From Polytrichum commune (Eukaryota > Streptophyta > Polytrichopsida > Polytrichales > Polytrichaceae), in NCBI GenBank assembly GCA_950295325.1, contig OX485806.1, forward strand, positions 51,703,169 through 51,767,168: DNA of 64,000 nucleotides. Direction: 5' to 3'. Under the pieces are notes generated by a model. It worked only from the letters and a program-made list of their open reading frames with translations, was not told where the DNA came from and ran no database searches. This document shows, piece by piece, positions 7,396 through 36,232 of this stretch. A program made the position numbers and the translations under genes. Position 1 is the stretch's first letter; each line of letters starts with the position of its first letter.

Positions 7396-7401
7396 TCCAT
7401 G

Positions 7402-7947
7402 TCTTGTAAATAACAATCGTGTGTCACAACAACTCGAGTACCAACCACCATTAACAAATACAACTAAAACATAGAAAATGCACACATAAACAACGCACAT
7501 CCACAAAGAACAAAAATAATCAAACCCCAGAAAAAAGTTTAATTCTCTTTTCAAATACACAAAATGAGTCAAGTTATCTCTCATTCCATCACATGAGAAT
7601 CCAAGAGTGTAAATAAGGGGAGAAAAATTCAAGATTTATTGCAAAAACATGCAATCTTCACCTTACACAAACTCTCTTCACACACTCACTCACAAGGCTT
7701 GACTTGGCAAGAATGCCAAGCCAAGAAGGAGGTTCCTCACTTAAGAACATCTTTCCAACTTTTAAGATTCATCCATCCAAATTTAAATGAATGAAATCCC
7801 ATGAATAAGGTACGGCCGCCAATGTCGCATACCGTGACAACTGTCATGTAAATAACGACCGTGTGTCACTGCAGCTCAAGTATCAACCACCACTAACAAA
7901 TACAACTAAAATATAGCAAAGGCACATATAAACAACACACCTCCACA
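7402..7947 (-). repeat. Probable gypsy 3' LTR with duplicated start
   Basis: A 104-bp segment at 7402-7503 is repeated directly at 7844-7947 (both contain GTAAATAAC then ACCAACCACC), 442 bp apart. The segment between them (about 7510-7843) matches 17812-18143. On the minus strand the unit starts TGTGGAGGTGTG just after a purine-rich GGGGGGCA tract (about 7948-7956), as an LTR after its polypurine tract would. It lies just downstream of the minus-strand gypsy integrase, where the 3' LTR belongs. The duplicated start suggests two LTRs in tandem, one truncated. Confidence 0.5.
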
Positions 7948-8289
7948 TGCCCCCCTTAGTTGACTATGGAGCCCCGCCAAACAACTAAGACCAATGCCAA
8001 TCCAAAGGGCATGGATAATGAAGAATCCCTCTGCAACCAACTAATGTGTTGAATGTCATGCCAAAGAATTGTAGGCTGGGTGCAGTGTGAATCCCATCCT
8101 TAATCACCTCTGATGTTTGGTCATCAAGTTCCAAAGAATTAATTCCATTGTCTCACGTTTGATCGCGCCTCTAAATCATAAATTTTCATTTTCTATTTGG
8201 GTAGGCTCAACATGGTAAAATTCACACAAGCCATACAACTAATACGGGTTGTAGGATGCCAATGAGGCATGCCTACCAAATTGATAGCT

Positions 8290-8840
8290 CATAACAATCC
8301 AAAGCAACACAAGGTTCCAATCATGGTGGTTCCCCTAAAGTAATCCATACTTCTTCAAGCCCCGCTTGGTTGTTTGAACAACCTGTTTAGCCAAGTCGTC
8401 TGTCTCTAGATGATCTTGTGAGGTGGTGCGGCGATTTATGAGAGCCTTAGTGCACAACTCTTTAAAAATACCGAAGAATTCCCTCCCCTGGTTTGTCAAT
8501 ACCTCAACCAATGCTCCAAAACGTGCCAATACACGATCTAGAAAGGCTACCATGGCCAACTCTGCAGAGTTTTTGGGTAGAGCAACAAGCTCAATCCACT
8601 TGCTAAAATGCTCCACCATTACCAACACGTATTTTGCTCCACGTGGTGTGACAACCAATGGTCTTCCAAAGTCCAGCGATCAGTGGTAGTCCAGTTTCAT
8701 GATAGTTAAGGGTTGTAATTGAGGTGACAAAGTGTTGAAGCTAGACTTGACCCGGTCACAAACTCCACACCTCCCGACATAAGCAACAACCTGTTGATAT
8801 ATGCTAGTCCGCCAATATTGGCCACACAATGTCAAATGTG
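8290..8840 (-). pseudogene. Ty3/gypsy integrase, decayed
   Basis: The minus strand encodes the end of the zinc-binding region (a CGVCDRV motif near 8760) and then the integrase core, including YVLVMVEHFSKW with the first catalytic region, and FGALVEVLTNQGREF. In active relatives the latter has a DQG triad residue, here NQG, so the second catalytic Asp is replaced by Asn. A HLETDDLA segment follows in place of the usual catalytic-Glu block. The open stretch is 8658-8335; the upstream zinc part is in another frame. The enzyme would insert the cDNA copy; this copy cannot be active. Confidence 0.82.
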
Positions 8841-9149
8841 TCTTGCGTATGCCAAAATGGTCAAGTTCAAAGTGGCCCGTTGGTCCGGTCTAAGAACAAT
8901 ACGCCTTGTCCCATCCAACCACAATCAAAATAACAAACCGCTTTTCCAACGGAACCTTGTTAATTAATGTTCAATCCTAATTGTTTCCATTGCCAAGATA
9001 GACAAAGGAAAATCCCCTGCCAAAGCTTATGCAATACAGAAAAATCCTCCTATATATCCACAATAACTTGATGTCGATTAATTGCATCATCCAAACCCTA
9101 TATCCAAACCTTAACAACAATGCTAGAAAACAAAGTGAGCTAAGCAATT

Positions 9150-9850
9150 GTGTGCCAACCTAGAATCGCGTCTTGATTACAATCCCCATGCCACCTGGCT
9201 TCGGTCAAATCCTCACCCAAAGGATTTGGATTGCGTAAGAGTCCATCTGCATCCAAGTTGGTAATCACAGCACGGTGTATCACCTCAAAGTTGTATTCCT
9301 AGAGCAATAAAACCCACATGGAGAATTTGCTAGGAAGCTTATTCGACTCCATGAGCCACCGTAAATGCTAATGGTCGATCCCTAAAGTAAAGTGCTGACC
9401 ATAGAGATATGGCCGAAAATGGACAATAACCCACACCACCGCCAACGTTTTTCTCTTGTAGGACAAATATTTGGCCTCCGCAATGTTGATGCTTCACGAA
9501 GCATAAGCAACAACATGATCCCGGCCATAATCATTCTAAATGAGAACTACTCCTAAACCCAATGAACTCCAGTCCGTATGCAACTGAAAGGATTTGGAGA
9601 CATCCAAACGTTGAAGCACTGGAACTGCACCTAGTATCTACTTCAATGTCTCGAATGCTTGTTGCTGCTTATGACCCCAAGTCCAAGGTTGGTCCTTGCT
9701 CGTAAGAATGGTAAGAGGCTTGGTGATTAAGCTAAAATTCTTGACAAATCGATGGTAGTAATTTTCCAAGCCCAAAAAAGCATGAAGTCTTGACATATCG
9801 ACCGGTATCAGGATCTTCTGCAAAGCGTCCACCTTAGCTTGTTGCACCCC
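9150..9850 (-). pseudogene. Ty3/gypsy RNase H and RT thumb, decayed
   Basis: At 9847-9638 the minus strand encodes the RT connection segment (AKVDALQKI, then LHAFLGLENYYHRFVKNFS and TSKDQPWTW), typical of gypsy RT-RNase H joints. Lower coordinates continue with RNase H-like text broken by stops and frame changes, including a DHxHL-like block near 9370 and a short tract near 9190 before the integrase. It belongs to the same polyprotein as the neighbouring RT and integrase. Confidence 0.72.
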
Positions 9851-9984
9851 AAGACCTCATGGAATAATCATATGACATAAATATGCTAGTCGTTTATAGA
9901 AAAATTTGCACTTCCCATGGTACAAGCGCAGTCTCCACCGTCGCAATCATTAAAAAATGGCTTGCAGATGCCCCGCATGCTCCT

Positions 9985-10711
9985 ATGGTGTCTTGTTGAA
10001 GATGATCACATCAATAATGTAACACTAAGCAAAAGGCAAGCCAGACATGACTTAGTCCATTACTCTTTGAAAGTCAGCATGTACACTTATTAGGCCAAAT
10101 GGAAGAAACTTCCGATGGTTGCCTTTATCATTCCCATCTTGATTAACTCTCTAGAATGTGGTTTTCACTCAATCTCTAGTAAGTACTGGGAGTTGGTGAT
10201 AGTCAGATCTCAAGTCCAGGGTGCTAAAAACTTGAGAAAATCCAATGGTATCGAACAATTCATCCGATATTGGCATGAGACACCAATCCGACTTGGTTTT
10301 CCGGTTAATTGGATAGTAATCCCCGCACATCCGCTTCTCCGTCCAATTGCCAAAGATATCCTTCTTCGATGGCATAACCATAGCACAATCATACTCCTTG
10401 TTGGAAAATTCAATGAATCTTGCTGCCATGAGCTTTCGGCAACAAACATGGACACCAATCCTCTCGGAAACACTAAGCCTATAGGATCTCCAAAAAAATA
10501 AGGTGGTAGTCCTCCAACTGAATATGGATTTGTTTTTTTTATAGCCTTCAAGATCTTGAAGGCTAAAAGCAAAACACCTATAGTATAAGCAAATGAACTC
10601 TCGTAATTTTTGTGCCTCAACACTAGTGAGATGAAGGCCTAATTCCAATCGCCAATCATCAAACTCTATGCTCTCCCTCTCCACCAAAGGGAAACCATCT
10701 AATGTTGGCAT
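9985..10711 (-). pseudogene. Ty3/gypsy reverse transcriptase, decayed
   Basis: The minus strand shows DWRLELGLHLTS and YRCFAFSLQDLEGY (protease-RT linker), PSKKDIFGNWTEKRMCGDY (RT fingers), FSTLDLRSDYHQLP (first catalytic Asp block) and, near 10040, CYIIDVIIF where an active enzyme has YIDD or YVDD. The first Asp of the pair is therefore lost, and in-frame TAG codons flank this motif. The main open part is 10711-10169; the rest is in shifted frames. Confidence 0.85.
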
Positions 10712-10954
10712 AAACTCTAACTGCTACTTAGAGTAGGGCCATTAATCATGCCCCCAACCTCAGTGCTAGCAATAAAATCTGGCCTCTCTTCATTACCACC
10801 AATATGTGATGATGAAGCCACCATCAGAGGCAAAGAAACCAAAGTAGTATAAACCCGTTGAGAAGTTTCTCCATCACCTGCTGCTCAAATCAAGAGATTT
10901 GTTTGGCTTCTACAACCATGGCCTCAATTCCCTCTTCCATGGATGCGGACTGCT

Positions 10955-11800
10955 ATGCCCCCTGGTTTTGGGGTTTAAGTTCTAAGATGTCATCCACCTT
11001 CTTATCAAAATGTGTAAGCACTGCAAAAAATGCTACAACTAAAGTAGATAGTGGTGCAAGGTTGGTCCAAATTAAAGCCACCGAGGTTGGTGAGAAAAAG
11101 TACCAAAGCCTGCAACATCCACAAAAATTAGATCACCAAAGAGATGACAAACATAATGTCTACCTTCCAACACCTTGTCCCGAGAGTCCCCTAATAGAGG
11201 TACATTCTCGAATATGTACCATGGAGGGAAAGGTTGGTGGGCAAACCACCACTGCATGAGCCGGATGAGGTCCCAAAAAAAACTAGACATGGGATCTTCC
11301 AACCTTTGGCCAACTCCAGCACGTGAATGCCCATAGTATGGCCATTCTACTATCACCAAAACCAATTGGCGTGGGTACAACACCATCAACTGGTGGAATT
11401 GATGACAAACCACACTCGTGGACACTTGGTTGTCATCCACATAAACATATTGTCGAATTGTGAGACCAACCTCCAACATGGCCGTTAATCTTGTCTTGAT
11501 GTCCTCAAACAATTCTACCAAAGTGATCCCTTGGTCTACCATAACCATGAAATGGGATGTGCCAACGCCAATGGGGTATCACGTATGAGTGGTGTTGTAG
11601 AACTAAAAAATAGGACATTGTCCTTACGCCTTTTGAATAGCTTGGCATAATCGCACCAGAGAAGAATATGATCCTTGGGATGGCGCACCAATACACCCTT
11701 AGGTTGATCTCTCCCGTTCATTTTCAACACTCTCCATGAATGCCAAATTTTCCTCCAATAATGCGGAACCATAGGACAATGTATCCACAACAACACCACA
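10955..11800 (-). pseudogene. C5-cytosine DNA methyltransferase-like domain within gypsy pol
   Basis: Between protease and RT the minus strand encodes, in order, motifs of C5-cytosine methyltransferases. GITLVELFEDIKTRLTAML at about 11530 matches motif I (SAM binding). VYVDDNQVSTSVVCHQ follows at the motif II position. EWPYYGHSRAGVGQ near 11325 sits where motif IV has the catalytic PCQ. YIFENVPLLGD near 11200 contains the ENV of motif VI. HQPRW near 11078 resembles motif VIII, and a frameshifted tail IWTNLAPLSTL continues to about 10960. Such a domain would methylate cytosine in DNA using SAM. Here the catalytic Cys is replaced by Tyr (TAC for the expected TGC), so this copy is inactive. The segment 11800-11549 is a decayed upstream extension. 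From memory, cytosine methyltransferases have been reported in retrotransposons of dinoflagellates and charophyte algae. The call rests on motif order and is not confirmed by a search. Confidence 0.62.
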
Positions 11801-11903
11801 TCTAGAAATTGTGGATAATGGAATTGTGGTCGCGGCCGCTGCGAATGTCACAAGAATAAGTTCCCTACGGCCGTCCCCGGCCGACCAACCTTATTGAATC
11901 TAA

Positions 11904-12414
11904 TGCCCCATCCCCACTTGACATTAGCAAATAACCAAAGATTTCACTAAAACCCAGGTAAAGCTCCCTCGGTTATAGCGGACACGTCCGGCCATCCCAA
12001 TGCACCTACAAGAACTTGCTCCGGAGATTTCCAAGTAGGTTTTAGTTAAGTAGCTTTCACACATGTTCATTGTTTTATCTACCAACCAATGAATGTTGGA
12101 TAGTTTTTGTCCCATCCCCAAATGCCTTAATACTTACCATCGGTTTTTGTTAATGGAGCTCTTCGTGCCCTCATAGCTAAGACTAAAAGCAACCAATCAC
12201 AAGAGCGGGAGGCAACACTTTTAGAGGTCCTACATTCTTGCCTCATGTCTAGGTATCGATGGGAGAGTCGGTAGTTTTAGCTTAAAACCTCTACTTTTAA
12301 GCCATGCCACATCATTTGCCAACTAGGCTCGGCACTAGATAATGTCGATGGTGTGAACGTTCATTTTTAAGAACCCACTTTTAGGCTTAGCTAATGTCAA
12401 GTGAGGAGGGGGCA
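11904..12414. mobile_element. PIF/Harbinger-like MITE, copy 1 (511 bp, intact ends)
   Basis: The termini are 25-bp inverted repeats beginning TGCCCC and containing CACTTGACATTAGC, with two mismatches, flanked by the 3-bp direct repeat TAA (11901-11903 and 12415-12417). That combination fits PIF/Harbinger-type MITEs. It lies inside the gypsy element and has no coding capacity. A second copy spans 30505-46995, split by later insertions; comparing the two defines the empty sites of those insertions. Confidence 0.8.
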
Positions 12415-12428
12415 TAAGCTTCCTCTGT

Positions 12429-12720
12429 CTAGTTGTCCAAGCTAAAAACAAGGAAATAGAGTGTTTGTTGACCAACTAAAATATCATAGTTGGTTACATC
12501 AATCACCGTACACCTAAGAAATAGAGGTGCAGGTGGATCTCTAGGTTTCACTTGGAAGCTAATCTGTAATGGCTCCCGAGTAAAACCAGTGGCTTGCTTC
12601 ACGTGGCCAATAAAGGTGACGATGGTAAATGGGCAAGGAGCCAAGTCGTCGGTCGTCAACCGTAATTCTTAAGCAAGTCTTGTGCTGATCATAACTGGTT
12701 GTGCCCTTAAATCCATCATT
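12429..12720 (-). pseudogene. Ty3/gypsy aspartic protease region, decayed
   Basis: The minus strand encodes VMMDLRAQPVMIS, resembling the active-site D-S/T-G block of retropepsins but with Arg in the Gly position. It is followed by TTDDLAPCPFTIVT, PLQISFQVKPRDPP and NYDILVGQQTLY, which resembles the flap and C-terminal strands (the I-L-G type motif) of gypsy proteases. Single stop codons interrupt it. Its place upstream of the methyltransferase-like domain and RT fits a gypsy pol. Confidence 0.65.
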
Positions 12721-12853
12721 ACACACTGGGATGCAACCCGAATAGCGTTGCCACCAACCTAACTGGCCACCAAAATGCCGATATCATTCATCATGCCGGG
12801 TTGAATGCCGCGGCACTTACGAATAAATCTAGTAACTACATTAAATAGATGAA

Positions 12854-14370
12854 CTACTCCCGTGGATTTTGGTGAGTCATAAGATGTGGTCGGCCCTTAT
12901 CATTTGAGGTGTGTGCGACAAAAGACGCAATGGCCTCCGTTGCAAGCCTCGCTCGCCATTTGGCCGCTTCCACGGAATCCTTGGCAGGGAAGTCTACGGT
13001 GGCTTGAGCCACAATTAGAGAAGACAAAAATGCCTTTCCTTCCAAAATCTTGTGTATTAGGTGTAAGACTATAGCCAGTTGGATGTCGGTAACAACCACT
13101 CCATTGTTGTGAACAAAGGTGTGTGCAACACCTTGAATGCCAACGTGTGTACTATGTCGGTCGCCGGATTCCAAGCTTTCATGTTTGATAATGATCGTCG
13201 TGCTAGACTAATATGATCCAAAAGATAATGATCGTCATGCCAGATTAATATGATCCAAGGGACCATTTCCCTGGGTTCACGAGCTCTCCACATACTTGTC
13301 TATGGTCAAACTTATGGCTCATAACACGGATTGAGCACGTGCCACAACTGTCAAAATTACTACTTCCATTGAAGCTCTGAACACATAATAATATGAATTG
13401 GAAGAACTAGCCTGAGCTATGAATGGAGTTGGCAATTCCAAGAATTGGTCAGATGACGTAAAATTCTTAAACCTCGCCTCCAAGGTAGTCGTGCTTGACC
13501 AATTTGATCCGTGGGGCCATTGCCCTGGGCTCGTAAACTCTTCACATACTCATCTGTGGCTAAATCATACTCGTTTCCATGGCAAATCTCGCCAACCTTA
13601 TATATATAGTATGAATTGTGTTATCATTTTCCCACCTAAAATCTTGAATCTATTGTTTTTTATCCGGGAATTGAATAAAATTCTTGTAGAAGATCAAAAT
13701 CTGGCGGAGCTGTAAAGAAACTAATGATGCTTGGATTGCCTAGGCATAACGAAAAAGTGAAACGACCCGACTAGACATACTTGCGTATACGGAAGCATGA
13801 ATTTTATTTTTAGGTTCACCAATGAAAGGTCCCTCCACATCCACCACAAAGACGTCATCTGTTTACTGCGTCTTATTCATAGGAGCGACCAATGATTTGG
13901 AAGTCGTGTCTTCATTTAATGCGGAAACCAACTCCACTCGAGTTTCCTAGTTTCGCTTCACCTAGCGCAGCTCCATCCAATGAGCATATCTCCACTGCTC
14001 ATAAGTTTGGAGCGATTCGTGTTCCAAATGTTTGGGAAAATCCTCGAATGTATACCAGTCATTAAAACTACTATTACATCGTTGTTTCCTTCTTATCGAC
14101 GTCTTAAACTGAATCTTTCTATCTTACAGAGAAATGTTCCCTATTTGACCGGAAAACAAGTTTTGGATTCTTCCTCGCGTCTCCTCCCCCATATCGTTAA
14201 AGGTTCCTACCCAAAGAACACGAGACCAAGTGGCAGTTTCCCATGCCAAAGTAGGTTTAAAACCCTTGTTGGATGCTATCACTGGTTCAAAATTTTAAAA
14301 GATCAAATGATCAACCTTTCGATATTTTTGGAAATGAGGAACGAAGATGTTGGCTTCGAGTCGTAATTAT
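12854..14370 (-). pseudogene. Gypsy gag-like region, decayed
   Basis: Minus-strand frames upstream of protease contain segments such as FPKHLEHESLQTYEQWRY (about 14030), VELVSALNEDTTSKSLV and DDVFVVDVEGPFIGEP (about 13900), and an open frame at 13174-12854. They are broken by stops and frame changes. Two related segments (about 13190-13330 and 13470-13570) look like an internal duplication. No zinc knuckle was recognised. The assignment as gag rests mainly on position. Confidence 0.45.
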
Positions 14371-14390
14371 AAACCCACAATGAGTCCGGT

Positions 14391-15480
14391 TATTGGAAGT
14401 ACAACCTACAATAATTGGATGTTAGGGTGTAAAAGACAAATGTGAAAAATATCCAATACTTACAACCATCACCAACCTTATGGCCCGATGATCATCAAAC
14501 CAACCTCAACATGAGGGAATACAAACACCTCCTACTTGGTGCATATATAAGGGTCTCGTTGATCATCACTCTGAGCTCACCCCCATGATAACCTGTTACA
14601 AATTAGTCCAATACAAAATGAGGCAATGCTTGAAAATTCCAGCAATACAACCCGTCACGAGGGAAGATACCAAAACAAAATACAAAATAATACAATTGTA
14701 GCACTAAATCATATTCTTCAAACAACACTTAAGCAAATATTAAAATTGACCATGCACAACTAGCACCCGCATGCAGTTGGTAGTCAAATGTGAGATATCC
14801 ATGTTGCCGTGGAAACATATTGCTCATAAACGCATCTCTCATCTTTCTACAACAACATAAAATCTCCTTCTCTATAAAAATCCCTGGAATTTGTATTGCT
14901 AAACACAATTTGACATTAATAATTATGTTATTAAATCGAATGGTTATTCTATGTTCTAAACAACTCTCAATGCCAATCCCTCGGCAATCTCATGCACATA
15001 TCCCTAAATGAATCCCAATGCCCGTCTATTTGCCACCCAAAGATTCAAGTATATGGATGCTTAAATGTATTCTTTTTATTTTTTTTAACCAAAAAAAAAA
15101 CACCACCTTGTGCCAAGTACATCTCCATACTTGATGTGAAGAAAAAAAAAAAACCAACCGTATGTTCATTGCAATCCCACGCCCTCCGCATGTTCTCGGA
15201 TGCTCCCGCGAACTCTCCCTGTGAGTATCAAATTGTCTTTGAGACCCTAACTTCCGTTCTTGATTAATTAAAATTTCTTTGGCAAATTCTTGTGAGAAAA
15301 TGCTTCTTTCATAAATCCAAAAATGGAACCTTGAATAAAATTTATTTGAATGAATTTTCATTTTATTCTATTTTTGTGTGACCAATTAAAAGACTGGACA
15401 ACATTAATAATAATAATAATAGCCAGTTCGGAGGGAGAAACATCTTGCGGTTGGTTACTGGCCCAACCTGGCCTGCAGCT
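14391..15480. other. AT-rich stretch, no recognised gene
   Basis: Moderately AT-rich sequence with poly-A runs near 15090 and 15145 and an AAT microsatellite near 15405. Open frames on both strands (for example 14790-15011) lack motifs. It could include unrecognised 5' parts of the gypsy element. Confidence 0.3.
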
Positions 15481-15489
15481 CCAGGAGTT

Positions 15490-15690
15490 GGGGGGGGTGG
15501 GGGGGGGCGGAACATGGGATACGCTGTTCGGGGGTCCTAGGGGCTGGGGACCTAGGGAATAGCCTAGGCTAGGGGGATGGGAACCTAGGTACAAGGCAGA
15601 AAAGGGGGGGGGGGGGGCGGATGAGAAGGGAAAAAAAGGAAAGAGGGGGGGGGGGGGGGGGGGGAAGGAAGAAGGAAAAGGGAGGGCCGG
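15490..15690. repeat. Long poly-G and polypurine tract
   Basis: Several uninterrupted G runs (15490-15508, about 15605-15618 and about 15645-15664) lie in a plus strand that is almost pure purine from about 15597 to 15697. The sequence can form G-quadruplex or triplex structures. The open frames seen here (proline and serine runs on the minus strand) are low-complexity artefacts. Confidence 0.85.
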
Positions 15691-15755
15691 GGGAGGGGCT
15701 ATCGGCCCTTGTAACCGGTCGCCGCGTGACACCAAATGGCCCTTGTAGCCAACTG

Positions 15756-17480
15756 TGAGCCCAAATGGGTGTGCCCACATTTGTGTTAGGACTAGAAGTC
15801 ATTAAAACTTAGGACCTGGATATTTCAAAAACATAAAAAGAGTGTTAATGGTTAGTGTTGATTGAAATTACATTAGCTTGATTTTTGGTTACAGTAAGGT
15901 TAAATGATTGGTGGAATTAGACTTTAGATTCGTGAGAATTAAGGGTCGCTCAAGGCAAGGCCCAAGAAAGGGTTTTAGAGTCGGGATTAGTATCCCTTCT
16001 GGCCATTTTAGGAGGGACAGGGTTTAGAGGATAAACCCCTGGATTCAAAGGCTAGGAGTGCTCGGGAGGGCAGGGAGCAGGGTCAGCACTACTGGTTCCT
16101 TTCTGAGCCGAGAAGGAGACGGAATGCAGCAGCAAGGAAGGCAAGGAGGCTGGCCGAAATCAGGCCAAGAGACAAGAACAATTGGGCAATGGCTCTCGGG
16201 ACTAGAGGCATAAGCTAGGAGGAATGCTCTTGGAGGAGGAGCGACGCCCACAGAGATACTTAAGCTCTGCAATTGGAAGGTAACTGGGCAGGAAGAGATA
16301 GAAATGTGAAACAGGGGATGAGCCCCTGAAGCTCACCAACCCTTGTGGGACTGTCACCCTCTAACATAGTGACATTGGCACATCGAAGGCCTTCGGATCG
16401 AACAGGACAAGTAGGGAACCCGAACACCGAAGGGAGGAGGAATTGAGTTGGCAGATTTGGCATTTTAGGGCGGGGATCACCGCCGCTGGCCAGCAGACTC
16501 CTAGGCGCTTGACCGCCAGCCAATGCTACGAATTTGAAGCTCTGAAGGCCAAGGCCATATGATAGAATTGGATGATCAGTGGAATTGCCAGGGAGAAGGC
16601 AAGCGGCAGTCCATGAGTTGCCAGCTGAGGCTCAAAGCCCCTAAGGTGGCGGCGAGGTGGTAGCATTCACATTCTGGTTGGGATTGTTGGATAGCGGTGG
16701 GAATCCAGTGTAGAAAGACGGATACTAATGCAAGATTCAATTGCGAATGCTTTCACGACTGGAGGGAAAAAAGGAATGTCGGGTGCCCAAATTCATGAAT
16801 GTCAAAATTTGAGACTGCAATCGCTGGGGGCTGTGTGTGGGGGTCGGTGATGATATGAAGAATCACAGGTTGGAATTCCCGACCATGTTCTGGGCATTAG
16901 CGAGGTTCCAGTGCGAGGCTAGCTGGGTATGCGGCTCCAGTGCTAAGCTGAAAGGGTGCTAGTTGCCTCTGATGAGTTCCTAGGGCAGTCCAGGAGCTCT
17001 TTGATGTACATTCAGTGGAAGCAGTCTGGAGGCGAAGGGCTGGGCTCGAAGTAGTTGGGTGCTCCAGCCGAGCAACCTGAATGGAAGGTTGGTGGTTCTC
17101 ATAGGATGGATGGAAGGGGTGTGAGCTGATTGGGATCTGAGGCAGGGTATTGAAGCCAAACCGAACTGTGACTCGGAGATGGCCGCAACCTAAGTTCAGA
17201 ATTGTGTTAGTGTGGTAGGGTTCAGTGTTTTGAGTGTAGTTGTTAAAGATCTAAGAATGATTATGCAAGGCCACTACCACAAGTAAAAGAGTATTCTTGA
17301 ATACTTGTAACCTAGGGTTGTTTTAATAAAAATGGGTGCTCAACATTCATGTGGCCAAGCATTGGGTACGCCCTCCAAGGGGTGAGTTAAGTTTAAGTAA
17401 TTACATGTTGGTCACATGTCTCCACCTGGACTACCACGCATAAGGGTGGGGGTTTGTGGCTGACACCAACAATAGCTTAA
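15756..17480 (+). repeat. Unclassified dispersed repeat, copy 1
   Basis: Starts TGTGAGCCCAAA and is similar over its first 350 bp to 58338-58700 (shared order of AAGTCATTA, AAAACATAAAAA, TTACATTAG and GGGTTTTAGAGT). It is richer in G+C than its surroundings, has no convincing coding capacity, and ends near GACACCAACA at 17462-17471. A TG start and CA end would suit an LTR or large non-coding retrotransposon derivative, but no target duplication was found. Confidence 0.5.
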
Positions 17481-17811
17481 GCTAACCAAGGGCTTCGCTT
17501 TTGCAATCGGTTTTTTTTTTTTGGGAATAAATTTGTATCTGAATTGGAATCAATAATGTTCATTTAAGCTTTTAAATGACCAAATGACAAGAAAATTTGT
17601 GGATAATTTAATAATTTATCATTATAAATCACATTGATGTGCCATTTACAAGCAAACATTCTTCTTCTTGTTGCTCCGCAAATCTGCGGTGTTCTTCGCT
17701 TCAACACTTTGCAATTCTGTCACTCCTTATCCTCACGTCCTTTTTTGTATGTTATATCTCAAGAATGAAGATGTAGAAAATAATAATGAAGGATTCTTAC
17801 CAAGTGAGAAG

Positions 17812-18143
17812 GAAAAAAATCGAACCCTAGTAAGAGATCTAATTTTCTCTTCAAATACAAACAATGAGTCATGTTATCTCTCACTCTACTACAGAAAAAT
17901 CCAAGAGTGTAAGTTAAGGGAGAAGAACTCAAGATTTATTACAAAAACATGTAATAAATCTTCACCTCACACAAACTCTCTTCACACACTTACTCACAAA
18001 GCTTGACTTGGCAAGAATGCCAAGCCAAGGGAAAGGCTCCTCAATCAGGAACATCTCTTCAACTTCTAAGATTCATCCATCCAAATCTAAATGAATGAAA
18101 TCCCACGGATAAGGTGTGGCCACCAACGCCGCATATCATGACA
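17812..18143 (-). repeat. LTR-like copy matching 7510-7843
   Basis: This 330-bp segment matches the LTR-like unit at 7510-7843 in the same orientation, sharing for example TTGACTTGGCAAGAATGCCA and AAGATTCATCCATCCAAAT. It is either a solo LTR fragment or the 5' LTR of the minus-strand gypsy element, separated from it by the repeat at 15.5-17.5 kb. The outer 104-bp block seen at the other copy is missing here. Confidence 0.5.
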
Positions 18144-19530: not shown

Positions 19531-21931
19531 TGGCTAGAGACAACGAACTTCTTGGGGGCAATCATTTTGACGGAGGTGCAAACTTTCAAGTGTTGGCATA
19601 TTGCATGAAGGGAATGCAACCTGAAATCAATGTTGGACTGATTGAAAGACTATGAACACCGTCTTCTTGAATGATGAAATCAAATTCTTAAAGGTCAGGT
19701 ATACAATATGGAAGAACCACCTCAAGAATCCAATCATGAACAAGATTCTTATAATGGTGAGCTAGCAGGTCAAGTAGTTGACGCTTTCCTAGTTGAACTC
19801 AACATGCTAGAGTCTCCCCAACAAACAAACTTGTGGTATCTTGATTCGGGAGCCATACATCACGTTTCTAGAGACCTGTCAGTGCTCACATCGATTCACC
19901 CAGCTAGTGGGGATTGTGTCCATTTTGCAGGTGGACATGTCGATATCCCAATCTCATTTGGAATAATAAAATCAATCTTGTTTGTTCTCTATATGCAAGG
20001 TATCAATTTATTTTGGTGGAATATAGGATCTATGTCCGACAAAAGAAAGACCTTTATATTCAAATCGGAAGGATGTTTCATAATCAATAATGGTACACTT
20101 AACATTGTGACATTTTCTCCGAGAGAAAATGAGAAATGTTTGTACAAGCTTGGGGCGGATTCGACAACCTTAGATCTAGAATTGAACTTACTTCATCACC
20201 AACGACCTTTTGGCACAAAAGACTTGGACATTTCCACACTTGAGGCATCTAGCAAATGATCAACTTTGAAGCAATCAACGGCATCCCCAACATCCATTTA
20301 AAAAAAAAAACATGTAGCAGATGTCAATTCGGCAAACACATTAAAACAAAGATGCCCAAGGATGCCACATTCCACGCCACAAAAATCCTTGACTTAGTTA
20401 CTCCAATGTTTGCGGACCTTTTAGAGTCAAATCCATAGGATGAACAAGATATTTCGTTATGTTTGTGGATGAATTCTCCAAAATACTATGGGTCTATTTC
20501 ATCTCCAATAAAAACCAAGTTTTAGATAGATTTCAATAGTTTGTACATACTATGGAGAACTCCACTAGGCATACCATTCAAACTCTTTATTTAGACAATG
20601 GTGGCAAATACATCTTTCAAGGTTTTTGTGATTTTTGCTCTTCGAAAGGTATCATCAGAGAATTTTCCCTGCCACACACACCACAATGCAATGGCGTGGC
20701 AAAACGCCGCAATCGCTCATTGCTAGACATTACACGATGTCTACTACTAGATAAAACTCTTTTAGACCACCTTTGGGGGGAAGTTGTCAAGGCTGCCAAC
20801 ATCATTCTTAATACATGGTCTACCAAGGGTAACCCCGACAAAACCCTGAATGAATTATTTGGTGTTTGATGACCCCACCAAATTCCAACCTCGCAAATCT
20901 CCAATGACCCCATCGAACTCCAATCTCGCAGGTCTTTGATGATCCCACCAAACTCCAACCTTGGAGATTAGACCGCATGCGCCGATTCCCATGACACCTC
21001 TAGGACTTTGTAGCTCACGTACAACTCATACAACCTAGCACTACTGTTTTTCTTCTCGACGATCAAGCCGACACCATCACATTCCATGAGGCTAGCAACA
21101 ATCCCTAGTGGCAAGCCGCCATGCAGAAAGAAATTGATTCCACTAAATTTCCACATGGTCTCTTGTGTGTCTTCCCATGGACAAAACGGCAATTACCTCT
21201 TGATGGCTATACAAGGTCAAACATAGTTTTAATGGTGGGCCTGATTGCTACAAAACTCGCCTCGTTGCCCATGGCTAAGAGCAAAAATTTGGGATCGATT
21301 TTACCAATATCTTTGCCCCGATGGTATGTTGAGAAACCATCCAAATTTAATTGCCATAGCTGTACATCTGAATTGGCAGATACACCAACTTGACGTGCTC
21401 ATCAACTTCCTCAATGGTGTCCTTAATAAAGATCTCTTCATGCAACAACCTCAAGGTTTTATCAAACCTAGTGAAAATCCTCTCGTTCACAAATTTTTTT
21501 ATGACTTACGACAAAACCCCCAGTCTTGGAGAGATGCAACTACACCTCATGTTGATGCAACCTTTTATAAAATGTTAGTTGGAAAACTTCTCATTTTCAT
21601 GGAAACTCGATTAGATCTCACCTATGTTATTAATGTTGTTAGCAGATTCATGCAAAACCCTCAAGAGACTCACTTGCAAGCTGCAAAACACATTCTCCAC
21701 TATCTACGTCGGTATCCAAACTTGGGAAAATCAAAACATTTTGAAATAGATTACCATTCCATTCGTCATAAATTAGAAAATAACACCATCAGAATAGAGT
21801 ATATTTCATCCCAAAAACAACCAATAGGTCTCTTGACAAAATCGCTAGGGAGAACAAAATTTAAAGAGTACAAGAGAAAACTCTACCTTTGTAATTCTAT
21901 CCCTCTTATCCCTGAAAAGTTTACAGAATGA
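19531..21931 (+). pseudogene. Ty1/copia gag-pol remnants, element A
   Basis: A gag start (MARDNELLGGNHFDGG) occurs at 19530. The frame 19708-20259 carries the protease motif WYLDSGAIHHVS. The integrase zinc segment CSRCQFGKH is at about 20315, and the integrase core has LYLDNGGKYIF and LPHTPQCNGVAKRRNRS (20552-20869). RT follows from about 21120 in shifted frames, with LDVLINFLNGVLNKDLFMQQ and then a jump to DATFYKMLVGKLLIF. The catalytic YVDD part is deleted. A second jump after YLRRYPNLG removes the RNase H catalytic part and leaves only its tail (IEYISSQKQPIGLLTKSLG). At least two internal deletions and several stops make it non-functional. Confidence 0.82.
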
Positions 21932-28850: not shown

Positions 28851-30500
28851 CTGCAATTGTGTGAGTCACCATGACTCCGGTCAAATTAACAAAGCGTAAA
28901 CAAGAATCTTATGCTCAAAGCCCACGCAAGAATCCCTTTCAAAGGTAGAGGCCAAACATTAAAACTTGGATCGCAGAAGAAGTCCCACCCAAAAAAACCT
29001 GCAAACTTCTGTGAGCATCAAAAGCTAGAGGGGGAATTTTGAAAATACGTGCACTCCTTGACTCGGAAAAACCCATCTGAGTCAGCAGCGAGACGAACAC
29101 CCATGTATCACTCCCCAACCAGCTGAAAACAAACGCAGCAATATCCTTGGTTAGAAACCCCAAGTAGTCTGTATAAGATCGCTCGCTCGCTGTCTACCTC
29201 TAACAGAAGGGACGAACCCAAACTTAAGGTAAGGTAAGGTAACGTGACACAATGATAGTGTAAGTTAAGTGATAACTTCTTCGCCACTTTTCTCCATGAA
29301 TCCTCCTCCCCCTGAGTATGCACTCGACCTACATTTCAAGTGTTGCACCTACCACCACCAGAACAAGGCAGCGGCAGCAACGGCAATCGAAGTTTTAGCT
29401 CCTTGGAAAACTTTTGCCTTCACCGAAATTATGAATGATAACTTAATCCAAAAAGGCATGGGACAGAAGCTTCACCGCTTCGTTATCGACTGGGATGACC
29501 CCCGAATGTTTCTGAAATGACCAGAGTAGTAAGTAGCATCAACAGTCATCCACACCAATTGATGTCTTCGAGGTATGAAAATGAACCACAGCAAAAGTAG
29601 ACAAACTCATTGGATCGCCAAAGCTCGATCAATGGACAGTGAGAACCAGTCGCTAGTTACAGATGAAGCGGTTGGATTTTTAAGACTTCTGGAAAACCAC
29701 CGATTACTTTAGAGAATATACCGGGGAGATTTTTGGGCATAATCAGTGGAGATTGTAGTGTCTACAAGTACAACAGGTTGCATGTTTACATCTTTCCGTT
29801 GTCTTCATGAATGTGAGGTATATTCTCTAAAGTGATCGGTGGCTTTCCTGAAGCCTTCAGCTTCAACCGGGTATTCTCATACTCAACCGGTTCATCTGCA
29901 ACTAGCGGTCTGTTTTCCCCGCTCATTGCCACGGTGGCCTGAGGTAATCACAACATAGAGCAGAACATTGTTCAGCCTCCTCCAACTTGTACCCGCAACT
30001 CAAAGGTAATTAAATAACCTCAAGATGAGAAGTTATGAAACTGGCAGCTTTGATAGTCCACATTGTCTTGCCAATTACAAGTCGGTGGAAGTGCATCCGC
30101 CCAGCAGCTGGCTCTCAACAGTGCCTCTTCACGCTGATTGATTTCATGTCCTTTGTGTGTGCTGTCGCCACAGCAATTCTCGGACTTGTACAAACGCTCT
30201 ACTATCTGCCTGCTTAGAATCGATTGAGCGCAATATGGTCGAGGAAACCGCGAAGGAATCGACCAATGTTGACAGTTCCAAAGCTGCGGGTGCGGGGACA
30301 ACAGCAGGCACCGGCACTCAAAGTCATTCCCCGCCATAATGGGTGCCACTTGACTTATGATCGCGGCAGGTAAGCTAATAACAGTAGTGCACACAGTAGT
30401 GGTGGAGAGGTCACTTTGCACTGCGAAGAAGACCACAGGAAGTGTAGAGCAACATGGATTTGCAAGTAACGCACACTTAAAATTTCCCCTGACCGCCAAG
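28851..30500. other. Intergenic region with a hairpin and unassigned frames
   Basis: Holds the inverted repeat at 29686-29853, a plus-strand frame 29269-29520 (APWKTFAFTEIMNDN, then QKLHRFVIDWDDPRM) and a 159-codon minus-strand frame (30499-30020) rich in Cys. Neither frame has a motif I can name. A GGTAA repeat is near 29228. The TAA target site of MITE copy 2 is at 30502-30504. Confidence 0.3.
29686..29853. repeat. 37-bp arm inverted repeat (hairpin)
   Basis: The arm at 29686-29722 pairs with 29817-29853 with three mismatches, leaving a 94-nt loop. The arms share ACTTTAGAGAATATACC. No flanking target duplication is evident, so it may be a small foldback or a microRNA-precursor-like structure. 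No known mature microRNA was recognised. Confidence 0.65.
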
Positions 30501-30781
30501 CTAATGCCCCCTTCCCACCTGACTTTACCAAATAACCAAAGTTTTCTCCTAAAGCCTGCGTAAACCTCTCTCGGTTATAGCAGAGGCATTCGGCTATCCC
30601 AATGCACCTACAAGAATTTGCTCCGGAGATTTTTGAGTAGATTTTAGTTAAGTAGTTTTCACATAGGTTCATTGTTTTATCTACCAAGCAATGAATGTTG
30701 GATAGTTTTTGTCTCATCCCCAAATGCCTTACTACTCATCTATCTTATCATCGGTTTTTGTTAATGAAGCTCCTTTAGCCC

Positions 30782-31715
30782 GCCATACGCTAAAGAACCC
30801 CTATCGAGCTCTGTGCGCCTAAGAATTTGCATCCCCTGACCCAGGTCTCAATGCCCAAACCATAACTTTCTAGACCTGCCCACACTGTTGCCCGCACCTA
30901 GCCTCACCAGATGGTACCTTGGACGGAGTTAGCTCCAAAACAACGTTAGTCATCCTTCGAGCCATGGACCTTCCTCTAAGCATTGGGAACATTCCGTGCT
31001 TCCTTCCCATCGGTTCTCAACCACATTTGCTAATGTTTCATGCAAACGACATCTGCGGATGTGCTATGCACTTAGATATGTAGAATGTGTTATGCATCGA
31101 AATCTCAGCAATATGTTGTGCGCCAATCCCAAATCTACAAATGTGTTATGCACTAAATCCAAATTTACAAATGTGTTATGTGTCATATTCATATTTACCA
31201 ATGTGTCATGCACGAGATCCAACTTAACAAATATGTCATGTGTCATATTCATATTTACAAATGTGTCATACGTCGTATTCAGATTTACAAATGTGTGATG
31301 CGTCATCTTCATATTTATGAATGTGTCATAAACTAGATCTAGATATACAAATGTGTCATGCACTAGATCCAGATTTGTGAATGTGTCATGCATCATATTC
31401 AAATGTACAAATGTGTCATGTACTACATCCAGATTTGCAAATGTGTCATGCACCAGATCCAAATTTATAAATGTGTTATGTATTAGGTCTACATTTATAA
31501 ATGTATTGTACACCCGATCCAGATTTGCGAATGTGTCATGCATCATATTCAAATGTACAAATGTGTCATGTACTACATCCAGATTTGCAAACATGTCATG
31601 CACCATATCCAAATCTATAAATGTGTTATGCACTAGGTCTACAGTTATAGATGTGTTGTGCACCAAATCCAGATTTACAAATATGTTATGCACTAGATCT
31701 ACAAATGTGTTGTGC
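30782..31715 (+). repeat. Left terminal inverted repeat of the MULE, with 30-bp array
   Basis: The reverse complement of 41885-42614 matches this region closely from the end inward through about 30782-31340. The inner part in both copies is an array of the same 30-bp unit, but the arrays differ in length. Confidence 0.82.
31081..31704 (+). repeat. Array of about 21 30-bp units in the MULE left terminus
   Basis: Units keep an exact 30-bp register; the consensus begins ATGTGTCATGCACTAGATCC and ends AGATTTACAA. A higher-order repeat of five units (150 bp) is visible: 31351-31500 is repeated at 31501-31650, with two units identical. Because 30 is a multiple of three, long open frames with a ten-residue repeat occur on both strands (229 codons on the minus strand). 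I take these as by-products, not genes. Confidence 0.9.
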
Positions 31716-34700
31716 AACAAAATTAATAGATCTAGTCTTATTAGTGCTAGCAACTACTTCGTACAAATAATGATTGTAATGAAATGATCTTTCTCTCTTA
31801 GCATGTGATGCAATAATTTCATAGCTTAGTGCACACATTTCTTTTGCCCCGTATTACATACACATGATTTGTAGATTGTGTATGAGTATTTTTTTTCACA
31901 CTCTATTTGATTATGTACTAGTAGATGATGTGGTCTTATGAGATTTGCTACATTTCATAATTAGGATGATTCACTACAATCTATTGTTCATAATAATGTA
32001 GATTATAATTATTTTGTACCTCTTTGCTTGGATCATCACTAATGAGTCTTATGAATCTCTAATTAGTCAGTTAATGTGGTTGGTTTAATAACGCAAACTT
32101 GTTGATCTAATAATATATATCCGCCTACACATTACATATTAATTTGCTGAGTTTTGTGGTTGTAACATAAATTACGAAGACATGGTTGGAAACATGTTGT
32201 AGTTTGTGTAAAACACTTGCAATTTTAATTATAGGAGAATCAACTTCATGGACCTCAAATCCAACTGAGACAGACAACAAAGATCCCAAAGTTTATTCGA
32301 TTGTTTTTCAAGTTGTACATGCAGATGTGATAATGAGATTACAAGAATCGATTCAATATCCACCACGAGGCCCATTCGCCTTTGAGGACCTCTAGTGGAC
32401 TCAACAAGTTTTGTCTGGAAATGGTCATTAGAACACCATCAACTATGCAGTCATACCCTGGGAGAGGCTTCTTGACTTCATAGTTGGTGAACAAAATAAT
32501 GACCTTTTTCCATGCAAGTTTACCAAGGAAATTATCAAGAAAAATCTTTCAAATTCCCTCAGCAATCCAAGAGCCAACAATCCTAGCATTGCAACCAGGT
32601 AATGTTATCCATTTCAATCCTCTCAATTGGCCATTTTTCAAATTAATGCACCATCGCCTATTCATTCTATTGCTTGGATGTAAATCATGAAGTTTAAAGG
32701 CCTTAAATTATAATTGTTGTCTCCATCTATACATTGAGTCTCTAATTTGAGTGATTCAAGCTTGATAATAGCAAACATCAATAATTAGGATGTTATGTGA
32801 CAAATCGACAACCAAATTATCAATGCTTAACATTCTCTATCGTATTTAGATATAGATGCAACTTTGGGCCAGAGGATAAGACAAAGATCGTTCCACATGA
32901 CATGCTAGCGCTCCTAAAATCTACGCAAAAAAATATAAAAATAAACCATATGAAAATAAAGCCAAGCAAGGCCACAAGACTATCCCCGACTATGACGTTT
33001 TCTCTATTAATCGCAAGACGGGCCAAAAAATACAAAGGATTGGGAAAACTCTGACAGGTGTGTTCATTAAGCGTGGGTGTCTTTGTTGTTTTGTTGCGAA
33101 GAGGCCTTATCTTGATGGCTCATTATATCAACTCATATATGAGTTATAAATCATACAAATAAAGATGAACAACTGTGTCATGGAAGTACAATGGTTGGTT
33201 TTCCTCGTGCATTAGGGTCAAATATTTTTGAAGACATGAAACTTTGCATAGAGCAGATGCATGCCTTGGGATTATCTCTAGCTCAAAACATGAATCAATA
33301 CAAATAAAATGTGAAGGAGTTGGCAAAGTGTAACAAACGAGTGACAAAAGATGTTTTTTTGCGAGGTACGGAATATCTACAAGAAGAGAGCTGAAGAGTT
33401 GTGGGAAAAATACCCTTCGGATCCAATCAGCGTATGAATGTGCATACATGAGAACCCTGACTATGTGTTGTTTTATCAAGAACACTTTCTTCTAAACCTT
33501 AACAACATTAATCAAGAAGATATCCCATTCAACCTTGGAATTCAGACGGAATGGCAGCAACAGATGATGGTCAAATTTGGCCATAACAATGTAATTGCAA
33601 TCAACGCGACATTGGGAACCAACCAAACCAGGGTATGTTGCTAACTTTGACATTTAAACTTAAGAATTTATGTACAATCTATGCTAAAGTTTGCGTTATG
33701 AAATTTTTTTATCATCATTTTATTGATCTATTGGTTGTACAATATCCGCTTTATAAAGTCATGGTATTTGATAATTGGAGGAATGGGATACCGGTAGCAT
33801 TTTTTGTTGTATCACGAAATCATAAAGGTGATCTTAGATTTGTGTTTGATGTATTGCTTTGCAATGTTCAAACCTTTCACGAGACATGAAGTCCATCATC
33901 AATAATTGTTGACAATGCACAAGCCAAAATCAACACTCTCAGGTATATGCCTCTATGTTATGCATTATGTGATATGCATACATTGTGTTATGTATTTAAT
34001 GTGATATATATCATATGCATTGCATGTTTTGAAGTATGTGTCATGTTACATGTATTGTGCATTAAATATCGCATAAAAACAGTTGCAATATTGCTTAAAC
34101 ATCTATTGTGGGGTGATATAATGAATATCCATCTAAGGTTTTCATATGCATGTGTTATTAGTTCAGGGTCCTAGTTTTTCACACCATCATATGCGTAATT
34201 CATTGCAGTTTATAAATGTTTAAAAATTAATTATGAGTTTGATTCATTTTCTTTAGGAAAGTGTGGCCTTTTGCCCAAATTTTCCTATGCTTATGGTATG
34301 TGAGAAAAACATGGGCAAAAACTGCGGTAAAAAAAATTAACAACAAGGTTGAAATAGCAGTTGTTTTACAACAAATTGGACTTGTCATGTATGGAAAGGA
34401 GTGTTTCATTGATTATGATCCGATGTTATAATCACACGAACAACTCCGTGATATACAACATGATCATCCAAAAGTAGCGACATTCATGAAATACATGAAT
34501 GAAGTTTGGATATATAAAATTTCCATGTGGTATATCAACAGTCATAACATTGCACATGTTGGACTGAACACAAATGTTGCAATCAAGTCATATCACTCAA
34601 ATTTGAAAAGTATATTGAACTCTACGAAAGAACGTTTCGATGGCCGCTGCATGGATTGGCTAATTTATCATATTACTGGAGAGGTTGTCATCCATTATTA

Positions 34701-35086
34701 GTATGGCGTTCAGTGTAAGGCATTTGGATTCATTCGCAATCGCAACCAAGAGGGCATCGTCGCTTCAGCTATCAATCGAGCCGATGCCATACTAGATTTC
34801 ATCGTTCTGATATGCATTGATGATAATGTTGTGTCGCGGCCCGCATTTTCTTAAAATCTTAAGTAACCTTGTTTTAAGTTTAAAGAATAGGTTTGACCAA
34901 GGAAAACATAATAAGTAGAGTACTTTATAAGTAGATTGTTAGATAGGTTATTTAGAATTGAGAAGAAAAATTAAAATCCTTAAAGTAGTTAAAAACATCA
35001 AATTAAGTTAGTGTTAGGAATTCCGTTTCGACTTGGAAATCTTAGAGCGGAGCGGACCGCACAGGCGACGGTGGGCCGCAACCACC

Positions 35087-36232
35087 ATGGCGACCCAAAC
35101 TCGGAAGAGGATCGTGGACAAACCACTAGCCCTCCGCAAGGTGCACGTGGTCACCCCCACTGGTCGAGAGGAGAGCAATGAGTTGGAGGCAGATTTGAGG
35201 CGTATGGGCTGCCTCGGGTTATGGGAAAAATCTTGGAGAGTACGCTGTGAGGAGATGGTGAGGGAGTTGGTCATTGGGGAGGTGGACCAAGTTTACGCTT
35301 CCACCATCCGGGGCCGACCGGATAGGTGGAATGCGGAATTGTGGAGTAGGGTTTACGAGTTCAAGCAGGGAGGGGAAGGTATGGCCACTAAGAGAGAAGA
35401 TTGTATCAGGGACAAATTCTCCCAGAGGTTGGATCCCAAGTATGGCTACTTTGTGAAAGATTGTAAAGACGAGAGGAAAATGAGAATGTTAGCTTTTCTA
35501 GTGCCTATCTTTAGTCCGGAGAAGCCCTATAACATCACTCTTACCCTTGCTACCACCTTACTTCTTGCATACTCCGAGAAGAAGGTGGTGGATTGGGGAA
35601 GCATCATTGGGAAGTTGGTGTACAAGTTGGCAACCAACACTAAGTGCGGCCAACCTTCCTACATTGGGCCTTTCCTCTTCCATCTTTACACACACGGAAA
35701 CCTACTCACAAACGAAGAGGAAACCCAATGGACATCGTATCAGTTCATGCGGGAGCTCCAGACTACCGATTCGGAGCCGGAGATGGGTCATGAGGATTTG
35801 AAGGAGGAAGATGTGGTGGAGTTGAGCAACGAAGAGCGGCCCGTGACCAAAAAACGGAAATTAATGTTGGGAAATCGTGCGACACGGACCAGGTCCGCCA
35901 CCAAGCCCGTAGGAGGTGAAACCTCCACCTTCCCCTTGGAGGACAATCCGGTGGACTCCATTATCCGCGACTTGGAGGGAGTAGGGTCCCGAATTGTGGA
36001 ATATGAGCTGCAAATGCAACAAGTAGGAGAATTGGTGGGCAATCCTCCGCGGGAGAGTTTGGTTGCCGCAATACAGAAGGCCATCCAAGATCCGCGCCGG
36101 TTGCGAGAGCTGGAGCGTAACGTGGACCACTTTACTACGGAAAAGCGGAAGACCGCGGAGCGAGTGCGGAAGTTGGAGGCAAAACGAGAAAAACTCCTTA
36201 AGCAGGTAAATGATACCACCCTCACGGTATAA
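35087..36232 (+). CDS. 381-codon intact frame, plant transposon-associated protein
   Basis: The start ATG sits in ACCACCATGGCG, a strong plant initiation context; an open frame extends 18 codons upstream. The middle (about residues 105-225) has KREDCIRDKFSQRLDPKYGY and then a helical stretch MRMLAFLVPIFSPEKPYN, TLATTLLLAYSEKKVVDWGS, YIGPFLFHLYTHGNLLTNEE. In pattern this resembles the putative plant transposon protein domain found in gag-like ORFs of some plant LTR elements, but I could not confirm that. The C-terminus is basic with a coiled coil (RELERNV to REKLLKQ). It ends at a TAA directly followed by an in-frame continuation, so the intact length may be a truncation. Function unknown. Confidence 0.55.
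   Translation: MATQTRKRIVDKPLALRKVHVVTPTGREESNELEADLRRMGCLGLWEKSWRVRCEEMVRELVIGEVDQVYASTIRGRPDRWNAELWSRVYEFKQGGEGMATKREDCIRDKFSQRLDPKYGYFVKDCKDERKMRMLAFLVPIFSPEKPYNITLTLATTLLLAYSEKKVVDWGSIIGKLVYKLATNTKCGQPSYIGPFLFHLYTHGNLLTNEEETQWTSYQFMRELQTTDSEPEMGHEDLKEEDVVELSNEERPVTKKRKLMLGNRATRTRSATKPVGGETSTFPLEDNPVDSIIRDLEGVGSRIVEYELQMQQVGELVGNPPRESLVAAIQKAIQDPRRLRELERNVDHFTTEKRKTAERVRKLEAKREKLLKQVNDTTLTV

Follow-up and report, generated by a model that had tools for sequence, protein, structure and literature searches.

Introduction

Retrotransposons are a main target of cytosine methylation, and one that itself encodes such an enzyme presents a paradox. Among the systems described so far, KnitGypsy-Dnmt3 of Klebsormidium nitens stands nearest to the element reported here; the Fig. 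4 legend of de Mendoza et al. 2018 (PMC5890265) gives its repeats 'the same' structure as those of a DIRS element. That paper also reports that two copies of SymbioDIRS methylated CG de novo in yeast. Here we describe a decayed element in a 64-kb stretch of DNA (C4:51703169-51767168 of a 408-Mb genome; hereafter the window). Its sequence identifies it as old and dead, one copy of a large Ty3/gypsy family whose members encode a cytosine-5 methyltransferase (MTase) of DNMT3 type. The original prediction for this locus had read C5-cytosine methyltransferase motifs on the minus strand, between the protease (PR) and reverse transcriptase (RT) of an otherwise ordinary gypsy element.

According to a 2019 paper (PMC6338049), land plants, such as tracheophytes, lack transposons of this kind. 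DNMT3 in streptophyte and dinoflagellate elements is mentioned in PMC12344493, which differs from the 2018 paper in giving Copia as the long terminal repeat (LTR) family. PMC12440569 contrasts DIRS recombinases with DDE integrases. The available parts of PMC9033089, PMC6453930 and PMC8616336 hold nothing on such elements in land plants. In the open-licence literature, covered mostly as titles and the beginnings of abstracts, we found no paper on a land-plant gypsy element with DNMT3, none on a leaky stop or a PHD finger in such elements, and none on circle integration by a DDE element.

Results

The methyltransferase domain and its class

All four motifs lie in a single open stretch of 168 amino acids (aa) on the minus strand (11578-11072), namely LFEDIKTRLTAML, WPYYGHSRAG, FENVPLL and QPRW, which bears out the motif reading of the original prediction. 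The same motifs recur in relatives, e.g. LFGGIGTGLAAVL, WPCQGHSRAG, FENVPLL and HRPRW. By itself, the window piece scored under the cut-off of 22 bits against PF00145 (E 0.08, 12.8 bits) and a sequence search against the PDB returned no match; the class of the MTase is therefore clear only from its relatives. A protein search with this piece gave 29 proteins at E <= 1 (48 candidates), the best at 1.1e-59 and 59% identity; 14 of the 29 carried PF00145, including 12 of the 13 top-ranked. The host's own genome held at least 298 matches to the piece (472 candidates, 150 scored). Taken together, the protein relatives and the genome matches indicate that the motifs do not reflect chance. Less-decayed relatives, on which the original prediction had been made to hinge, matched PF00145 at 7.7e-13 (protein P0001) and 1.3e-12 (genomic copy L034). 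In the window copy, tyrosine replaces the catalytic cysteine (WPC to WPY). Also missing are ~98 base pairs (bp) from the interval separating motifs I and IV and ~379 bp that include motifs IX-X, and the reading frame is broken.

A profile of 28 relatives placed DNMT3A first in the PDB (1.5e-17, 66.7 bits) and DNMT3B next (60.6 bits), followed by 4onj (40.9; titled 'DNA methyltransferase', which we take to be tobacco DRM), DRM2 (33.8), HaeIII and HhaI (30.5 and 29.4) and DNMT2-type enzymes (24.0); motif X was aligned too. P0001 alone likewise had DNMT3A in the lead (1.4e-8), with HhaI at 1.2e-5, 4onj at 1.4e-3 and DRM2 at 0.56. The predicted structure of P0034 (pLDDT 75.5, 29 sequences) had DNMT3A as its best Foldseek match (2.6e-15) and DNMT3B/A as its best match by Z (25.2; HhaI 22.0). 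Thus, by sequence profile and by fold comparison of the model, DNMT3 was nearest among solved C5 methyltransferases. Motifs I, IV (PC), VI (ENV), VIII and X run unpermuted in relatives and younger copies, the window copy having PY at IV and a deletion of IX-X. DRM enzymes have a permuted motif order by definition, and the order I-IV-VI-VIII-X ruled out a DRM identity. These comparisons assign the MTase to the DNMT3 class. They also bear on whether the enzyme might be DNMT2-like and methylate RNA, namely the genomic RNA of the element. DNMT2-type enzymes act on tRNA (the PDB names such chains tRNA methyltransferases) and the domain lies on the side of Gag, with which RNA is packaged, but sequence and fold go with DNMT3 and not DNMT2 (66.7 versus 24.0 bits), and we consider RNA methylation very unlikely.

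The catalytic motif was PC in 45 of 50 loci, PY in 2 (one being the window copy), SC in 1 and not found in 2; the ENV motif was intact in 45 of 50, with KNV in 4 and another form in 1. Five of these loci are repeat fetches, leaving 45 distinct copies. Retention of PC and ENV in most copies, and in the inspected relatives at 42-50% identity (P0155 has EHV for ENV), argues against a structural or passenger role, in which the domain would be kept for folding or oligomerising Gag and catalysis would be irrelevant. DNMT3 catalytic domains do form tetramers and larger oligomers, according to PDB entry titles, and the MTase evolves faster than the RT; on balance a purely structural role appears quite unlikely.

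Copies in the genome and domain content

The 20 copies that we fetched were picked for long open frames nearby, a sample that leans toward less-decayed copies. Open reading frame (ORF) 1, comprising gag, PR and MTase, was open for at least 1340 aa in 13 of the 20, and ORF2, comprising RT, RNase H, integrase and PHD, for at least 1000 aa in 9; the two share a frame in copies with both open. Relatives in the genome, for which the original prediction had called, are thus numerous, many of those fetched having long open frames, and they form at least two subfamilies (ORF1 of ~1366 versus ~1386 aa).

A Pfam scan of L034, in eight pieces covering both frames, found in ORF1 a CCHC knuckle (0.0013) and an aspartic protease (2.6e-4), both below cut-off, together with PF00145. 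ORF2 matched RVT_1 (8e-25), RNase H (5.5e-38), the integrase zinc domain (6.8e-18), rve (9e-15) and the PHD finger PF00628 (6e-12). The order PR-RT-RNase H-integrase with an rve integrase is that of Ty3/gypsy, and the MTase falls between PR and RT, as originally proposed, with the sub-threshold PR match noted above. With regard to the tyrosine recombinase of DIRS/Ngaro elements, no phage-integrase family was among the matches of the eight pieces at E <= 0.1. Among the 60 listed of 157 PDB matches to the PHD part were CHD4, PHF12, KMT2D, ATXR5, DPF3, KAT6A, UHRF1 and KDM5 proteins; from the properties of some of these, our guess is that it reads unmodified H3 tails.

A PF00145 search of the genome had 123 of 352 candidates scored, all above cut-off. 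Several loci were fetched copies (e.g. C5:8788431 is L034 and C2:22814200 is L035), and no host DNMT gene was identified among the 123. The notion that the remnant is a host DNMT3 pseudogene, beside which a gypsy element inserted by chance, has only the decay of the window copy in its favour. It is refuted by the copy number, by the MTase sharing a frame with gag-PR in 13 of the 20 copies, by the agreement of MTase and RT trees in their main groups and by the same domain order in Marchantia and Klebsormidium proteins (see below), which leaves its probability practically nil.

By hand count, ~53 of ~150 listed matches to the window piece lay on C4, mostly at 41-58.7 Mb and many with stops; C4 makes up 14.5% of the genome. 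This cluster is possibly a heterochromatic or non-recombining region. The excess may also be a bias, the rows having been ranked by likeness to the window copy, itself on C4.

Organization of the window copy

Domain positions were set by similarity to L034, and features of the element are as follows.

7400..18143, minus strand: whole decayed Ty3/gypsy element, 5' end 18143, 3' end 7400; 4-bp flanks GGGA / TGGA, 3 of 4 bases agreeing
17806..18143, minus strand: repeat A1, the 5' terminal repeat, starts TGTC
18006..18021, minus strand: inner segment of A1, equivalent to the part of younger copies that is complementary to their putative primer site
17791..17805, minus strand: putative self-primer binding site, ACTTGGTAAGAATCC in the window copy and ACTTGGCAAGAATGC in many younger copies
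14789..17577, no strand assigned: stretch in the leader unalignable to copy L045, probably nested insertion(s)
12959..14385, minus strand: decayed gag, similarity to L034
12414..12893, minus strand: decayed aspartic protease, similarity to L034; the DSGA site of relatives is DLRA here
11892..12417, no strand assigned: 526-bp nested insert resembling a miniature inverted-repeat transposable element, with imperfect ~26-bp terminal inverted repeats by eye
11471..11878, minus strand: linker between protease and methyltransferase, similarity to L034
10980..11467, minus strand: decayed cytosine methyltransferase of the DNMT3 class, retaining motifs I to VIII, with Tyr for the catalytic Cys
10718..10726, minus strand: TAG CAG TTA stop, UAG-CAR-YYA context, directly before the RT frame
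9794..10723, minus strand: decayed reverse transcriptase, similarity to L034
9320..9790, minus strand: decayed RNase H, similarity to L034
8257..9017, minus strand: decayed integrase, similarity to L034; PF00665 at E 7e-9 on 8335-8679
7948..7957, minus strand: polypurine tract AAGGGGGGCA
7842..7947, minus strand: repeat B1
7832..7845, minus strand: B1-A2 joint, near-palindrome GACAGTTGTC (GACAGCTGTC in 15 of the 20 fetched copies)
7506..7839, minus strand: repeat A2
7400..7505, minus strand: repeat B2, the 3' terminal repeat, ends GACA

A further ~631 bp, comprising the C-terminal part of the integrase and the PHD finger, are deleted from the window copy. The interval first proposed for the MTase, 10955..11800, does contain the remnant (11467-10980), and most of its remainder is linker. 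The description as an otherwise ordinary gypsy pol did not survive: the repeats are split, the MTase falls on the gag side of a leaky-stop context and the integrase is followed by a PHD finger. The 526-bp insert has no counterpart at the same site in L045. Pieces of it recur in the window at 30498-30772, 42620-42707 and 46835-46999.

The stop codon between MTase and RT

The sequence TAG-CAR-YYA separates ORF1 from ORF2 in 19 of the 20 fetched copies (CAATTA in 16, CAATCA in 2, CAGTTA in 1), L049 being without it. In readthrough of tobacco mosaic virus (TMV), CAR YYA after UAG is essential (PMC2754532). Since the MTase lies before this TMV-type leaky stop context, it belongs to the gag side. 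The 17 proteins P0121-P0137 carry the MTase without an RT match, and 16 of them end at most 71 residues after it (proteins only), as expected from a shared stop. The MTase runs on into the RT in P0138 (Marchantia), P0141-P0146, P0148, P0155 (Klebsormidium) and P0159.

This arrangement also bears on where the enzyme would act. It may act mainly in trans on host chromatin, reshaping silencing, in preference to the cDNA of the element. In favour of this, enzymes of the DNMT3 type operate on chromatin, and the readthrough product would carry the PHD finger (PF00628, 6e-12; PDB matches including CHD4 and UHRF1). However, the MTase is joined to Gag-PR and would be linked to integrase-PHD only after readthrough, making action chiefly in trans unlikely.

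Terminal repeats, target duplications and joints

The repeats run in the order A1-coding-B1-A2-B2, with A of ~333 bp and B of ~106 bp in subfamily A; the two equal end LTRs expected of Ty3/gypsy were not found. Both ends were readable in 5 of the 20 copies, with exact 4-bp duplications (GAGA, CAGC, ATGC, CCAC) or, in GGTC/TGTC, one mismatch. The duplications lie outside A1 and B2, which ruled out a standard-LTR reading, and they fit a DDE integrase. DIRS and Ngaro elements are not known to make target-site duplications, unlike these copies.

A purine tract stands directly before B1. The sequence after A1 was complementary to an inner part of A over 9-15 nucleotides (nt) in 14 of 15 copies (15 nt in L045), versus at most 8 nt in leader controls (n=200). 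One subfamily B copy, L036, at first gave 7 nt, no better than its own controls (maximum 10 of 158); shifting the boundary 5 nt by eye gave 12 nt of a different sequence, which is a weakness. Complementarity of at least 12 nt occurred in 0 of 2000 shuffles for L045 and likewise for L036. In the 10 copies with primer site, purine tract and A2/B2 joint all readable, the primer-site end of A abuts the purine-tract start of B without a gap, a few A ends carrying single substitutions. Two further copies had a readable joint and no readable primer site, and 8 of the 20 gave no pattern match, including both subfamily B copies; the L036 joint, read by eye, agreed within one or two bases. The inner B1/A2 joint reads GACAGCTGTC in 15 of the 20 copies, and the outer ends TGTC...GACA are without the GC.

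A joint made of primer-site end and purine-tract start suggests integration from a permuted two-LTR circle; in the simplest reading, such a circle would have been opened by integrase at the inner palindrome. A viral-contig scan with A1 gave 2 distant loci (24-25% identity), which were not used; none of the 27 pattern matches from a scan with A2 was a relative.

Relatives and trees

Relatives of P0001 were taken as the best 120 of 267. Identity over the MTase was 42% for Klebsormidium nitens P0155 (KFL_009030040), 44% and 47% for Marchantia polymorpha P0138 (MARPO_0091s0058) and P0139 (MARPO_0008s0049), and, relative to P0001, 48% for Calypogeia fissa P0059; P0138, P0139 and P0059 are called hypothetical or unnamed at source. 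The Marchantia and Calypogeia proteins stem from contigs of 0.87, 2.9 and 25 Mb, which makes contamination unlikely. The original restriction of such elements to dinoflagellates and charophytes agrees with PMC5890265, but proteins labelled Marchantia and Calypogeia carry the MTase too. P0032, 70% identical to P0001, is labelled as a Candidatus Obscuribacterales metagenome-assembled genome (contig of 2410 bases) and is probably plant DNA in a bacterial bin. A second order, RT-RNase H-MTase followed by integrase and mostly PHD (order II), was found in P0147, P0149-P0153, P0158 and P0160-P0162.

Trees were built from 31 MTases and 22 RTs, human DNMT3A being the sole host row, on a long branch. 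The two trees agree in their main groups. Nine order-II rows group together in both (100/99), and both unite Klebsormidium with P0159, and P0143-P0146 with P0148. Marchantia joins the own-genome copies at 94/90 in the RT tree, and the own family, Marchantia and Calypogeia group at 97/96 in the MTase tree. Disagreement concerns P0142, with less than half its RT columns filled, and the inside of the order-II group. Subfamily B (L036) falls with P0121 (99/97) in the MTase tree, apart from subfamily A, indicating that the two subfamilies parted before P0121 did. P0163 and P0164, DNMT-RT fusions without a match to this family's RT that we take to be DIRS-like, fall unresolved among gypsy rows. The protease-MTase-RT position is common to Klebsormidium, Marchantia and the own family, and a single old capture in the gypsy lineage thereby becomes testable.

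Selection, age and decay

Ratios of nonsynonymous to synonymous substitution (dN/dS) were estimated within subfamily A from 55 pairs of 11 open ORF1s and from 21 ORF2 pairs. ORF1 gave 0.21 for gag, 0.22 for PR, 0.45 for the PR-MTase linker, 0.26 for the MTase and 1.06 for the tail. ORF2 gave 0.05 for RT and 0.07 for RNase H; few changes underlie its remaining values of 1.41 (stretch after RNase H), 0.22 (integrase core), 0.48 (integrase C-terminal part) and 0.58 (PHD). Comparisons between subfamilies A and B had dS of 1.5 to 3.2 and were not relied on. These estimates place the MTase under purifying selection.

Kimura two-parameter (K2P) distances between A1 and A2 ranged from 0 to 0.024 among 13 copies, in several of which the retrieved stretch truncated A1, and such near-identical repeats in many copies indicate recent insertion. 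The window copy gave 0.189, with 54 of 334 sites differing, 44 by transitions. Its C-to-T changes relative to L045 affected 30% of CG (169/556), 32% of CHG (165/515) and 17% of CHH sites (327/1896). This pattern fits decay of a copy silenced plant-style (CG and CHG), in an approximate comparison, as L045 is not its ancestor.

Other features of the window

A tRNA scan of the 64-kb window found none. Plus-strand stretches at 19678-21931 (RVT_2, E 8e-12) and 44335-45468 (zinc knuckles of CCHC type at 1.4e-13, plus weak similarity to Pol_BBD) are probable Ty1/copia remnants. Internally repeated coding-like stretches at 31064-31753, with LVHNTFVDL-type units, and 41878-42609 match each other in inverted orientation. 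At 35018-36966 on the plus strand, two ORFs of 404 and 186 aa had no Pfam match at E <= 0.1 and are possibly an unclassified mobile element or gene.

Discussion

From these patterns we infer that a Gag-protease-methyltransferase polyprotein would be made in bulk, the MTase preceding a TMV-type leaky UAG, and that RT-RNase H-integrase-PHD would be made only via readthrough. In that case the MTase would be packaged with Gag as a major constituent of the particle; if active, it would methylate the cDNA of the element that encodes it, either while reverse transcription proceeds or afterwards, and the benefit would be that new insertions carry host-like marks from the outset. As one explanation, we put the probability of this scheme at roughly 0.6.

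Several findings weigh against it. The Klebsormidium domain gave no methylation in yeast, a result that the authors call inconclusive (PMC5890265). The MTase is less constrained than RT and RNase H (0.26 versus 0.05 and 0.07 in subfamily A), the PHD finger and integrase C-terminal part are at 0.58 and 0.48 on few changes, and the selection estimates come from copies picked for open frames. The CpG observed/expected ratio was 0.68-0.79 in four younger copies versus 0.60 in the window copy and 0.56 in the whole window, indicating no clear depletion from lasting CpG methylation of the active lineage. Finally, Marchantia P0138 and Klebsormidium P0155 have no stop between MTase and RT, and gag-level dosage is thus not general.

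As for integration, self-primed reverse transcription would yield a conventional linear product with B-A repeats, and its ends would join, the end of U5 meeting the start of U3 at the A2/B2 joint. The DDE integrase would open this circle at the inner palindrome GACA-GC-TGTC, drop the GC and make the 4-bp duplications. Integration from permuted circular cDNA, combined with an own DNMT3-type enzyme in Gag-like amounts, we hold tentatively, at slightly short of even odds. A-B-A-B repeats, a DDE integrase, target duplications and a nearly base-exact joint make circle integration a concrete prediction.

The family appears by these data to be large and recently active, with end repeats of a type usual in elements with a different integration enzyme. 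The proteins labelled Marchantia and Calypogeia, which are land plants outside the tracheophytes, and probably this host too, contradict the broad form of the statement in PMC6338049. The host itself is likely a land plant, to judge by the closest named relatives and by the decay at CHG sites. With its near-identical repeats, the family is a place to look for self-methylation of cDNA.

Several features recall other known systems. Chromoviruses carry a chromatin-reader domain after the integrase, as does the window family, where it is a PHD finger and not a chromodomain. Tf1-type elements are self-primed, the sequence after the 5' repeat being complementary to an inner stretch of the repeat; the window family shows this complementarity, but its repeats are split. 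Split direct repeats are known from Ngaro/PAT elements. DIRS-type elements share the A-coding-B-A-B order; however, they encode a tyrosine recombinase (PMC12440569), whereas the window family has an rve integrase, TG..CA ends and 4-bp duplications. SymbioDIRS-Dnmt3 of dinoflagellates (PMC5890265) is likewise a retrotransposon that has A-B-A-B repeats and a DNMT3-class MTase, but with a tyrosine recombinase in place of a DDE integrase. Marchantia P0138 has MTase-RT-RNase H after a protease-like part, as in the window family, but its MTase and RT are not separated by a stop. Of the described elements, KnitGypsy-Dnmt3 is the closest and has in common the features that define the type: Ty3/gypsy domains, a DNMT3-class MTase and DIRS-like repeats. 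P0155 of K. nitens, which presumably belongs to it, has MTase-RT-RNase H-integrase after a protease-like part, as in the window family; unlike that family, it has no stop between MTase and RT and no PHD match in its partial sequence, and it branches apart in both trees.
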